Of a DNA stretch of 64,000 nt, positions 728 to 39,985 are shown one piece after another. The DNA is from Pseudomonas wenzhouensis (GTDB lineage: Bacteria > Pseudomonadota > Gammaproteobacteria > Pseudomonadales > Pseudomonadaceae), in assembly GCF_021029445.1 (NCBI RefSeq), contig NZ_CP072610.1:4092001-4156000 (forward strand), in the 5' to 3' direction. The notes under the pieces were generated by a model that saw only the letters and a list, made by a program, of their open reading frames with translations, did not search any database and was not told the origin of the DNA. The number at the start of each line of letters is the position of its first letter. Within the stretch, counting starts at the first letter, position 1. Position numbers and translations under genes: made by a program.

Positions 728-2157
728 GGCAGTCCCTGTTGTCCCTGGCCGTGGCCGCCGCTCTGCTCAGCGGCTGCAGCCTGATCCCTGACTATCAGCG
801 CCCGGATGCGCCCGTGGCGGCTGACTGGCCGCAGGGCGAGGCCTATGGCAGCGCCGCCACGGAAGGCAGCCGCGCTGCGGCTGACCTGCAATGGCGCGAG
901 TTCTTCCGCGACCCGGCGCTGCAGCAACTGGTGCAGGTGGCGCTGGAAAACAACCGCGACCTGCGCGTCGCCGCGCTGAACGTCGAAGCCTACCGCGCGC
1001 TGTACCGCATCCAGCGCGCCGATCTGCTGCCCTCGGTGGCCGCCGACGGCAGCGGCAGCCGCCAGCGCATGCCCGGTGATCTGAGCCAGACCGGCGAAGC
1101 CCGTACCAGCGGCCAGTACAGCGCCACCCTGGGCGTCAACGCCTGGGAGCTGGACTTCTTCGGCCGCATTCGCAGCCTCAGCGAGCAGGCGTTGCAGGAG
1201 TACCTGGCTACCGAACAGGCCGCGCGCAGCACGCAGATCAGCCTGGTCGCCAGCGTGGCCAGCGCCTACCTGCAATGGCAGGCCGATCTGGCCCTGCTGC
1301 AGCTGACCCAGGACACCCTGAAAACCTTCGAGGAAAGCTATCAGCTGACCCAGCGCAGCTTCGACGTCGGCGTCGCCGATGCCCTGGCCCTGAGTCAGGC
1401 ACGCAGCTCGGTGGACAGCGCGCGCGTCAGCCTGGCGCAGTACCAGCGCCTGGTCGCCCAGGATCGCAACGCCCTGATCCAACTGCTCGGCACCGGTCTG
1501 CCGGCCGACCTGCCGCAGGGGCTGAAGCTCAATGCCGATCTGCTGGAACAGGTTCCCGCCGGCCTGCCCGCCGACCTGTTGCAGCGCCGCCCCGACCTGC
1601 TGCATGCCGAGTACCGGCTCAAGGCCGCCAACGCCAACATCGGCGCGGCGCGTGCGGCGTTCTTCCCCAGCATCAGCCTGACGGCCAATGCCGGCACCGC
1701 CAGCAGCCAGTTGTCCGGCCTGTTCGACGGCGGCTCTGGTACCTGGCTGTTCCAGCCGCAGATCAGCCTGCCGATCTTCAATGCCGGCCGTCTGCGCGCC
1801 AACCTCGACTATGCCGAGCTGCAAAGCGATATCCGCGTCGCCGAGTACGAGAAGGCCATCCAGGTGGCCTTCCAGGAAGTTGCCGACCGCCTTGCCGCGC
1901 GCACCACCTATCGTCAGCAACTGGATGCCCAGCGCGCCCTGCTGGAAACCACCGAAACCTACTATGAACTGGCCGAGCGCCGTTACCGCACCGGTGTCGA
2001 CAGCTACCTGACCCTGCTCGACGCCCAACGCCAGCTGTTCAGCGTGCGCCAGCAACTGATCATCGACCGCCTGGCCCAGCTCAGCAGCGAAGTGGAGCTG
2101 TACAAGGCGCTGGGGGGTGGCTGGAGCGCTACAGGGGGCAACGCCTCGCAGGATTAA
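724..2157 (+). CDS. oprM: Outer membrane efflux channel lipoprotein OprM
   Basis: A 477-residue outer membrane factor of the TolC/NodT family. It has a lipoprotein signal ending LLSGC (acylated Cys at residue 18), then SLIPDYQRP, and two repeated OEP domains (about residues 60-260 and 270-465). Stretches such as [38 protein letters not shown] and [13 protein letters not shown] are very close to remembered OprM of P. aeruginosa, including the ending YKALGGGW. It forms the trimeric outer membrane and periplasmic tunnel for the RND pump encoded just upstream, with which it overlaps by 4 bases. A rho-independent terminator follows about 40 bases after the stop, so this is the last gene of the operon. 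Confidence 0.92.
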
Positions 2158-23269: not shown

Positions 23270-23490
23270 CTGAGAAGAGATAAAAAGAAAAGGGGCCTTG
23301 CGGCCCCCTCGGGAAATCTGTCCGGTGCTGGCGATGCTGTCGCCGCTTTCGTCGCCCGCCTGGTTGGGCAGTGCGGACCCGGGTGCCGAGGCGATCCGGT
23401 AAGGATCGTCGGCGCCGGCTCACCTGGTTGGGCGAGGCCGGTAGGACTTGTCGTCCGGGCCGTGAAACTGAGATAAAGCTTACGCCTGGC
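23270..23490 (-). ncRNA. Candidate small RNA upstream of and divergent from the Lrp-family gene
   Basis: On the minus strand a GC-rich stretch of about 200 bases ends in a strong terminator: GGGGCCGCAAGGCCCC, then TTTTCTTTTT at about 23299-23275. The stretch holds two CCCAACCAGG copies and two (T)CCT(T)ACCGG copies, a two-unit repeat that could fold. No coding sequence is convincing; the open frame here is arginine-rich and unlike known proteins. The 5' end is not defined and an AT-rich promoter zone lies near 23500-23550. The 449-base gap between the antitoxin-like gene and the Lrp gene otherwise holds only this promoter zone. Confidence 0.5.
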
Positions 23491-23502
23491 ACGCCGAAAT
23501 AA

Positions 23503-23575
23503 GATTGCTAATATTGCTTACAAATTTACCAATTGCGCAATTAACACCCAAAGTAGCACTATTTAGCGCAATTCA
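23503..23575. promoter_or_regulatory. AT-rich divergent control region with palindromes
   Basis: This segment contains ATTGCTAATATTGC, the perfect palindrome AATTGCGCAATT at 23532-23543, and a further GCGCAATT near 23566. Its base composition is far from the GC-rich surroundings. It is the natural promoter zone of the Lrp-family gene and possibly an autoregulatory site. Confidence 0.5.
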
Positions 23576-33507: not shown

Positions 33508-33549
33508 GCAAGTTCCTTGATCGCGCCCACCGCGCGACGAGTTGGAGGA

Positions 33550-33745
33550 TCGATGGATTCGATGGCAGGTCTCCTGGCTCACGGCTTGGCACTTCGCCCG
33601 CCTTCCCGACCGAAGTCAGTGGCATCCGGGCATCGTTCGCCGCTTACAGTTGCGGGGGCAGCCAGGGAATTGGCGAGACTCGCCGCACCCTGTTCCCTTT
33701 TCATCCGCACGCACGTGCGGGCGGAACCATCGGCGGCAACCTTAC
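33550..33745 (-). promoter_or_regulatory. Cobalamin (AdoCbl) riboswitch
   Basis: Read on the minus strand, the conserved blocks appear in order: GGGAACAGGGTGCGG, CCCCGCAACTGTAAGCGG, GCCACTG near GGTCGGGAAGGCGGG, and the B12-box-like AGCCAGGAGACCTGCC. This is a standard cobalamin riboswitch placed about 45 bases before the CbiM-like gene, which it should shut off when B12 is abundant. Confidence 0.92.
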
Positions 33746-33941
33746 TCCGCCGTTCTGACAAAAGACAGCGCTCGCCCTCGAGTCGCTACCCGACCTTGAT
33801 CGCAGACCCTGGCAGATCCGTCCATTGATCCCCAACACAGAGATCGCCTGCCTACGACGCCAGCACAATCCAGCAGGACCATAACGGCGAACCCCAGGCA
33901 AAACGAAACAGCGCTCTAATTCTGCGCCTCATAAATTCCAA

Positions 33942-37471: not shown

Positions 37472-38029
37472 ATGAGCAAGACCTACAAGGTCGCCGTGCT
37501 GGTCGGCAGCCTGCGCAAGGCCTCCATCAACCGCAAGCTGGCCCTGGCGCTGGCTGATCTGGCACCGCCCTCGCTGAAGCTGGAAATCGTCGAGATCGGT
37601 GACCTGCCGCTGTACAACGAAGACGCCGACGGCGACAGCGCTCCGGCCGCCTACGCGCCGTTTCGCAATGCGCTCAAGGCGGCTGACGCGGTGCTGTTCA
37701 TCACCCCCGAATACAACCGCTCGATCCCCGGCGCGATGAAAAACGCCATCGACGTCGGTTCGCGCCCTTACGGCCAGAGCGGTTTCAGCGGCAAGCCGGG
37801 CGCCGTGCTCAGCGCCTCGCCAGGTGCCATCGGCGGTTTCGGTGCCAACCATCACCTGCGCCAGTGCCTGGTGTTCCTCGACGTACAGGTGCTGCAGCAG
37901 CCGGAGGCTTATCTGGGCGGCGCCGGCAATTTCTTCGACGACAACGGCGTACTCAGCGACGGCATCAAGCCGTTCCTGCAGAAGTTCATCGAGGCCTATG
38001 CGGCGTGGGTGGCCAAGCACGCCGGATGA
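37472..38029 (+). CDS. NADPH-dependent FMN reductase (ChrR/azoreductase-like)
   Basis: 185 residues of a flavodoxin-like fold: VGSLRKASINRKLA (FMN phosphate loop, about 11-24), TPEYNRSIPGAMKNAIDV and SPGAIGGFGA. Family members are soluble quinone, chromate or azo-dye reductases that protect against oxidative stress. It is a single gene. The Rsm sRNA terminator points towards it from the other side. Confidence 0.87.
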   Translation: MSKTYKVAVLVGSLRKASINRKLALALADLAPPSLKLEIVEIGDLPLYNEDADGDSAPAAYAPFRNALKAADAVLFITPEYNRSIPGAMKNAIDVGSRPYGQSGFSGKPGAVLSASPGAIGGFGANHHLRQCLVFLDVQVLQQPEAYLGGAGNFFDDNGVLSDGIKPFLQKFIEAYAAWVAKHAG

Positions 38030-38110
38030 ATACAGACCCTGGCGCCGTACCGGCTGAAAACCGTGCGGCGTCGACTGTGTATCTGGCGTTGGCGCTCCGG
38101 GCGGCTGCCC

Positions 38111-38137
38111 AAAAAAGAAAACCCCGCGATTGCGGGG
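38111..38137 (-). terminator. Terminator of the Rsm-type sRNA
   Basis: On the minus strand: CCCCGC-AATC-GCGGGG then TTTTCTTTTTT. Confidence 0.88.
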
Positions 38138-38236
38138 CCTGCAGACTGTTGTCCTGACATCCTTGATCTGCTCACCATCCAGGTGGCTGTCCAGCGTGTC
38201 CCTGTTCGTCTAGGCGCTTCCTGCGCTGAATCCATG
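38111..38236 (-). ncRNA. Rsm-family regulatory sRNA (RsmX/RsmY/RsmZ type)
   Basis: On the minus strand about 125 bases carry seven GGA motifs: ATGGA, CAGGA, AGGGA, CTGGA twice, AAGGA and CAGGA. These include the hairpin GCGC-AGGAA-GCGC, the form seen in RsmY, and the RNA ends in a strong terminator. Such RNAs bind RsmA/CsrA dimers and free target mRNAs. A perfect GacA box lies about 65 bases upstream of the predicted start. The neighbours (FMN reductase, EndA-like gene) are not those I recall for rsmY (dnr) or rsmZ (rpoS/fdxA) in P. aeruginosa, so it may be an extra, RsmX-like copy. The 5' end is estimated from a TACTCT -10 box at 38248-38243. Confidence 0.85.
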
Positions 38237-38292
38237 GGCGCAAGAGTACGCTCGTACCTGATCACCTCACAGTAGCGATACTCGCCACATCC

Positions 38293-38310
38293 TGTAAGCC
38301 ATGGCTTACA
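38293..38310. promoter_or_regulatory. GacA box (upstream activating sequence)
   Basis: TGTAAGCCATGGCTTACA matches the known TGTAAG-N6-CTTACA site perfectly and is a full palindrome. It is placed to activate the minus-strand Rsm RNA. The FMN reductase to EndA-like gap of 414 bases holds this box, the sRNA and little else. Confidence 0.9.
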
Positions 38311-38443
38311 CACTCCATCATCCATGGCATGGCGCCGGGAAGAATCTCATCGACTATGTTTTTTGTAAGGTGCGCCTTGCTAGACTCAGTCGCGAACGAC
38401 AAAAACAACAGACCCCCGATCACGGCGGTCACGAGGCTAGAGT

Positions 38444-39103
38444 ATGCGCGTAGTTACCCTGCTTCTCGGTTGCCTGGCAACCTGCATTGGCACGACTGCC
38501 CTGGCTGGCGGCCAGAGCCAACTGGGCAACGTCAAACAGGCCATCGACCAGGTGTTCTGGCAGGATCTGTACGGTAACGGCGGCACCACACTGTATTGTG
38601 GCCAGCCCTTTACCCGCGTCAGCGGCAACCTGGCGGCCAGCCCGATCTACAGCAGCAAACAGCTCAAGAGTGCGTTGCGCTGCGTTACCGACCGCCAATG
38701 CACCATCATGAACCCGCGCTACCCCTACATCGCTTCCGACCTGCATAACCACTACCCGGCGCTGGCGAGGGTTGAGCTGATACGGCGTAATTCGCAGTTC
38801 AGCGAACAGGTCGAGGATGGACCAAGCAAATTCGCCGATATCGGCTGTGACCTTAAAGCCAGCTTCCAACTGCTCAACCCGCGCGACGAAGCCAAGGGCA
38901 ATATCGCCCGGGCGATCTTCTACATGCATGTCGAATACGACCTGCCCATCGTCGGCCTGGTACCGATGTACAAGAACTGGCACCGCATGGATCCGCCCGA
39001 TGCCGAGGAAAAGGCGCGCAATGACAAAATCGAAGCACTGCAGGGCACACGCAATCGCTTTATCGACGATCCGTCACTGGTGGATCAGTTGATCGCTGAT
39101 TGA
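38444..39103 (+). CDS. Endonuclease I (EndA/Vvn) family protein lacking catalytic residues
   Basis: 219 residues with a signal peptide (to about 22, TTALA). Much of the EndA fold is clear: LYGNGGTTLYCGQPF, ASDLHNHYPALARV, GNIARAIFYMHVEYDLP, NWHRMDPPDAEEKARND and the end LQGTRNRFIDDP. The usual EHVYP or EHVVP stretch with the metal Glu and general-base His is replaced by ASPIYSSKQ, and the Asn after the DLHN helix (VN in active enzymes) is Glu (RVELIRR). All three key residues of Vvn-type nucleases therefore seem lost. It would be a periplasmic or secreted protein with a non-nuclease role, or a decaying gene with an intact frame. Confidence 0.78.
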   Translation: MRVVTLLLGCLATCIGTTALAGGQSQLGNVKQAIDQVFWQDLYGNGGTTLYCGQPFTRVSGNLAASPIYSSKQLKSALRCVTDRQCTIMNPRYPYIASDLHNHYPALARVELIRRNSQFSEQVEDGPSKFADIGCDLKASFQLLNPRDEAKGNIARAIFYMHVEYDLPIVGLVPMYKNWHRMDPPDAEEKARNDKIEALQGTRNRFIDDPSLVDQLIAD

Positions 39104-39213: not shown

Positions 39214-39927
39214 CTACGCTCTGCGCTTGTGCAGTGAACGTAGCTTGTAGCGGTCGCCGGGATGGATCAGTCGTGCATAGCTGATCAGGTGATCGTCCGA
39301 CCAGGTGCGGCGGATCACGCTCAGGCAGGGCATGGTCGGGTCGATCTGCAGCAGCTCGGCGGTGCGTGCATCCACCCGCACCGCTTCGACCACATGTTCG
39401 ACATCCGAGATCGGGCAACTGGCGACCAGCACCTCGTTGGGCGTGACCCGGGTGAAATCGCTTTGCAGGTAATGCGGCACCCAGCGCGGGTTGACGAAGC
39501 GGTCCTCGAGCTGGATCGGCAGGCCGTCCTGCAGGTGCACGAGGATGCTGTGAAACACCTCGGCGCCCAGGCGCAGCCCCAGACGTAGAGCCACTTCGTC
39601 ATCGGCGGCGATGGCCTCGCAGCGCACCACATCGTTGCTGTAGGCATGGCCGCGACCGCGCACTTCACTGGCGATGTTCATCACCTCATGCAGCGACGAC
39701 TCTGCCTTGCGGTCGGTGACGAAGGTGCCAAGCCCGGCTTGACGCACCAGGTAGCCCTTCTGCACCAGGTTCTGGATCGCCTTGTTGGCGGTCATGCGGC
39801 TGACCGAGAAATCGCGCGCCAGTTGCTCCTCGGGCGGAATCTGATGATTGACCGGATAGGCGCCGCCGTGAATGCGCTCGAGGAGGAAATCCTCGATGGC
39901 CTTGTAGCGCGGGGTGGGACTGGTCAC
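39214..39927 (-). CDS. hutC: Histidine utilisation repressor HutC
   Basis: About 237 residues of the HutC/FarR branch of GntR regulators. The winged helix is QIPPEEQLARDFSVSRMTAN with KAIQNLVQKGYLVRQAGLG (about 32-72). The C-terminal UTRA domain has HSILVHLQDGLPIQLEDRFV (cited as landmark) and ISYARLIHPGDRYKLRS. It binds TGTATATACA-type sites and is released by urocanate. The GTG at 39927 follows AAGGAG at a good distance. It lies downstream of hutH, separated by two REP doublets. Confidence 0.92.
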   Translation of the reverse strand: MTSPTPRYKAIEDFLLERIHGGAYPVNHQIPPEEQLARDFSVSRMTANKAIQNLVQKGYLVRQAGLGTFVTDRKAESSLHEVMNIASEVRGRGHAYSNDVVRCEAIAADDEVALRLGLRLGAEVFHSILVHLQDGLPIQLEDRFVNPRWVPHYLQSDFTRVTPNEVLVASCPISDVEHVVEAVRVDARTAELLQIDPTMPCLSVIRRTWSDDHLISYARLIHPGDRYKLRSLHKRRA

Positions 39928-39985
39928 GGCTGCTCCTTGGAAATGCCCGGTGCGCGGATGATACATCAGCCATACGCGTGATCTC

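Follow-up and report, generated by a model that had tools for sequence, protein, structure and literature searches.

The GacS/GacA system activates the small RNAs RsmX, RsmY and RsmZ, which in turn titrate RsmA, as set out in the accessible text of PMC2375449. The rsmY gene of P. fluorescens SS101 is 118 bp long and carries the box TGTAAGCATTCTCTTACA, according to the accessible part of PMC4353343. For rsmX, the accessible part of PMC7911923 describes pairs in tandem and, in P. syringae, as many as five copies, and gives TATAGCGAAACGCTTACA as the site reported for P. brassicacearum.

We analysed a 64,000-nucleotide stretch of the Pseudomonas wenzhouensis genome (contig NZ_CP072610.1, positions 4,092,001 to 4,156,000), hereafter the window, in which an earlier note had pointed to an sRNA of the Rsm type preceded by a perfect GacA box. 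This claim is borne out, as the minus strand holds a match to the RsmY model of Rfam that scores 105 bits against a gathering score of 57 (E 3.2e-24) and covers positions 1-121 of the 121 of the model (Table 1). Searching with the RsmX, RsmY and RsmZ covariance models, the check proposed in that note, brings only the RsmY model over its threshold at the locus; the rsmX model reaches 16.2 bits against a cut-off of 56, and the RsmZ model finds no match here at E values up to 10. Over the respective cut-offs, the genome encodes, at separate loci, this one RsmY, one RsmZ (1634917-1635049, 106 bits) and two rsmX genes (1439761-1439868 and 112908-113012, with 83.1 and 72.0 bits to the rsmX model), and a second RsmY over the cut-off is absent from the whole 4.45-Mb genome. 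The score of 105 bits is lower than in the matches listed for the genus sample, which reach about 123-134 bits, and 44 named relatives with an RsmY at the same position score 84.5-116.9 bits. No plasmid match was obtained with a 221-base query. Judged by its sequence, the gene is real, canonical and of an already known kind, and we regard it as almost certainly the orthologous RsmY sRNA gene of the Pseudomonas mendocina/oleovorans/alcaliphila group, which would act as a GacA-activated sponge for RsmA.

Table 1. Coordinates of the features discussed; positions are those of the window unless a locus or genome handle is given.
Feature	Position	Strand	Basis
RsmY sRNA (Rfam RF00195)	38118..38235	minus	match over the full model, seven GGA
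GacA box (upstream activating sequence), perfect 18-bp palindrome	38293..38310	no strand	pattern search
5' hairpin GCGC-AGGAA-GCGC, GGA in loop	38214..38226	minus	Rfam alignment, fold
Intrinsic terminator hairpin, then U run	38112..38140 (boundaries approximate)	minus	Rfam alignment, fold
Putative -10 element TACTCT	38243..38248	minus	by eye; TA.TCT columns in at least 90% of 45 rows
EndA-like (Endonuclease I family) gene, divergent; conserved neighbour outside the sRNA gene	38444..39103	plus	PF04231, E 2.8e-19
NADPH-dependent FMN reductase gene, converging on rsmY; neighbour only	37472..38029	plus	PF03358, E 2.6e-39
P24 Pseudomonas sRNA	23290-23540	minus	Rfam 118.2 bits, gathering 100
Cobalamin riboswitch	33547-33746	minus	Rfam 126.4 bits, gathering 31.5
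rsmX array L150	G373:C2:97800-100300		
rsmX array L151	G359:C1:1081900-1084200		
rsmX array L152	G408:C1:2734000-2736200		
Group II intron-part match, L004 (own-genome rsmX)	1692-1976		
Group II intron-part match, L087	2269-2565		
Group II intron-part match, L089	1480-1776		

The motifs reported earlier for the minus strand, namely seven GGA motifs, a hairpin with AGGAA between GCGC arms and a terminator, are all present. The GGA motifs begin at 38233, 38221, 38201, 38192, 38180, 38162 and 38154, and such a density is uncommon in the window: among 127,750 windows of 125 bases, taken from both strands, 47 contain at least seven GGA; of these, 44 overlap rsmY and the other three lie at 39834-39960 on the plus strand. 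The 13-base core of the hairpin is present in all 45 rows of an alignment of the window with the 44 named relatives. The fold energy of the RNA is not unusually stable (z -1.23, with 21 of 200 shuffles folding at least equally well), and the identification is therefore carried by the match to the RsmY family.

Upstream of the minus-strand gene lies the box TGTAAGCCATGGCTTACA, which is the only exact match to TGTAAGN6CTTACA in the whole genome and is listed on both strands since its half-sites are palindromic; the reversed control pattern has no match in the genome. The box begins 75 bases before the start of the RsmY model. Its distance from the RNA had been put at about 65 bases, and the arrangement stands with a shorter gap of 57 bases if the RNA starts at 38235, where the Rfam match does. 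Spacing is conserved: the start of the box and the hairpin are separated by 84 bases in 42 of the 45 rows, by 83 in two and by 85 in one. The box itself is exact in 37 of the 44 named relatives, with one mismatch in six and two mismatches in one. Across the 45 rows, the commonest base has an average share of 0.94 in the box and 0.89 in the RNA; the two spacers that flank the box reach 0.54-0.67, and the downstream stretch 0.56. The other Rsm genes of the genome carry boxes of their own, with TATGGC-N6-CTTACA starting at -74 in both rsmX genes, which resembles the P. brassicacearum site (PMC7911923, accessible part), and TGTAAGTGATTGCTCACA starting 168 bases upstream of RsmZ. We also observe that in one metagenome-assembled genome (L122) the box is replaced by TGTCAG-N6-CTGACA, which starts 196 bases before the EndA-like gene; both arms are altered symmetrically, such that the palindrome is retained.

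Of 298 genomes sampled from the genus, 293 have an RsmY that exceeds the cut-off, as do 108 of the 148 genomes of the family sample. A match at E 1e-4 is present in 141 of these 148; 40 of the 148 have none over the cut-off, and the RsmY model therefore misses some relatives. The earlier note had correctly named the neighbours of the RNA as an FMN reductase and an EndA-like gene and had considered the locus unfamiliar. The second of these neighbours is in fact the rule among relatives. Named genomes scanned with the EndA-like protein yielded 45 loci (42 from Pseudomonas and one each from a Pseudomonadaceae bacterium, a Gammaproteobacteria bacterium and an alphaproteobacterial metagenome-assembled genome with 32% identity), and 44 of them have RsmY upstream of the EndA-like gene, the exception being the alphaproteobacterial one. 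The best matches to the protein are from P. alcaliphila (89%), Pseudomonas sp. 8O (86%), and P. chengduensis and P. oleovorans (84%); against NCBIfam NF011716, deoxyribonuclease I, it scores 53.9 bits, under the cut-off of 372. The pairing of rsmY with the EndA-like gene is the normal arrangement in relatives of P. mendocina, P. oleovorans and P. alcaliphila. In a wider set made of the 58 other best-scoring RsmY loci of the genus and family samples (L023-L080), the exact GacA box is present at 47 loci; a neighbour search at E 1e-5 over about 1.5 kb on either side finds an EndA-like match at 11 and an FMN reductase at none of the 58, so that the latter neighbour is not conserved. In some other pseudomonads (L060, L069, L071), a LysR regulator or acyl-CoA dehydrogenase gene is found near RsmY. 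Neighbours of rsmY vary between Pseudomonas groups, and neighbourhood is a poor guide to the type of an Rsm RNA.

Two protein partners of the pathway are encoded in the same genome, where a regulator of the GacA family (314.5 bits against a cut-off of 280) lies directly before uvrC and a single gene encodes CsrA/RsmA (89.2 bits, cut-off 27). Direct observation covers these genes, the family to which the RNA belongs, and the box with its conservation and spacing. By analogy with known RsmY, phosphorylation of GacA by GacS would lead GacA to bind the palindrome and switch on minus-strand transcription that starts at about 38236; the resulting RNA of about 120 nucleotides would offer several GGA motifs and titrate the single RsmA, and repression of the target mRNAs would thereby be relieved.

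The notion that motifs of this kind were assembled by chance, with GGA motifs, a terminator and a palindrome but no RNA gene, could draw on the unremarkable fold energy; it is contradicted by the Rfam E value, the genus-wide occurrence and the fixed spacing of the box, and its probability is practically negligible. The earlier suggestion that this is an additional Rsm RNA, or an RsmX-like one, separate from the rsmY of the genome, had some basis in the neighbours, given that transcriptional regulators (pqqH/cynR3/dnr) adjoin rsmY in the accessible part of PMC4353343 and that LysR regulator and acyl-CoA dehydrogenase genes adjoin RsmY at L060, unlike the neighbours in the window. We reject it as highly improbable, since no other RsmY of the genome exceeds the cut-off and the rsmX score of this locus lies under the rsmX cut-off; this score also stands against those of the two rsmX genes, and the two-sided box of rsmY is unlike their TATGGC...CTTACA boxes. 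Seven of the sub-threshold matches elsewhere in the genome (588k, 2545k, 3325k, 3396k, 3202k, 352k and 389k) were likewise set aside. Six have 0-2 GGA and that at 389k has three. In the 150 bases upstream, the best site of each has at least five mismatches to the two-sided box, against four for the true rsmX genes; they therefore look like terminator look-alikes.

A different proposal concerns the box and leaves the identity of the RNA as it is, namely that the palindrome has a double role and activates the divergent EndA-like nuclease gene as well as rsmY, such that Gac signalling would couple the RsmA sponge to DNA turnover, through degradation or uptake. The two genes have one common intergenic region in 44 of the 45 named loci, the symmetry of the box fits shared use, and the promoter and leader on the EndA side are conserved (0.85 and 0.81). 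Against this, the start of the box lies at a variable 110-231 bases from the EndA start (a range that leaves out L124, where the EndA match is partial and lies 38 bases away), while its spacing to rsmY is fixed, and the exact box also occurs at RsmY loci where no EndA match is present. A candidate second box at 38364-38381 was rejected, as it has two mismatches in the window and is not kept in the 44 named relatives, where the corresponding place has four mismatches or falls outside the two best sites per locus. With the distance variable and this half-site not kept, there is therefore no good sign of GacA driving the EndA-like gene; co-control is at best weakly suggested, and we consider it quite unlikely that the box serves both genes. 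Among the matches listed in a literature search on GacA, rsmY, endonuclease I and EndA, no title deals with co-regulation.

The leader of the EndA-like gene has a conserved stretch of its own, ACAAAAACAACAG, at 38399-38411. In the window, the first base of AANAANAA within this leader lies 43 bases ahead of the start codon, and the motif is found within 80 bases of the EndA-like start in 41 of 44 named loci; we take it to resemble the Hfq/Crc 'CA motif'.

Several further observations concern Rsm RNA genes in relatives. Class C introns insert just after terminators. Matches to parts of group II introns start 85-88 bases past the end of the terminator of an Rsm RNA gene at three loci, which are an rsmX gene of this genome, rsmY of P. 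mendocina EF27 and rsmY of P. indoloxydans; these positions fit insertion in the class C manner. In another genus of the family (g6), three of 13 genomes have head-to-tail rsmX arrays of five, five and four copies with a period of 226-229 bases, and a separate box of the TATGGC or GATGGC type precedes every copy at -70 to -72. Similarity among the copies is 97-100% in L150 and L151, and the fourth copy of L152 compares at 0.30 without gaps. Each of three further g6 genomes (G380, G388 and G401) gives seven matches to the rsmX model at E 1e-6, most of them on separate contigs, and 8-11 to the RsmY model at E 1e-4. In an Rfam scan of five g6 stretches, three have rsmX or RsmY over the cut-off, with four genes in total; nifH over the cut-off is found in none of the 13 g6 genomes. 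No rsmX array longer than tandem pairs was found in the accessible part of PMC7911923.

The locus has little weight as a discovery, being an ordinary RsmY, and its value lies in placing the canonical Gac/Rsm set (two rsmX, RsmY, RsmZ, one RsmA and GacA) in this genome. Among known RNAs, PrrB/RsmZ (RF00166) belongs to the same Rfam clan as RsmY and is present here in one copy, but its model has no match at the rsmY locus down to E 10. The rsmX family (RF02144) also shares the clan and has the same expected function, but differs in its sub-threshold score at this locus and in the boxes of its two copies elsewhere in the genome. From SS101 rsmY, the gene differs in having seven GGA motifs against the eight stated in the accessible part of PMC4353343, and in having the EndA-like and FMN reductase genes as neighbours against the regulator genes described there. 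With RsmY of Pseudomonas it shares a full-length covariance match over about 118 nucleotides, the repeated GGA motifs, the GCGC-AGGAA-GCGC 5' hairpin, the terminator and the GacA box upstream.
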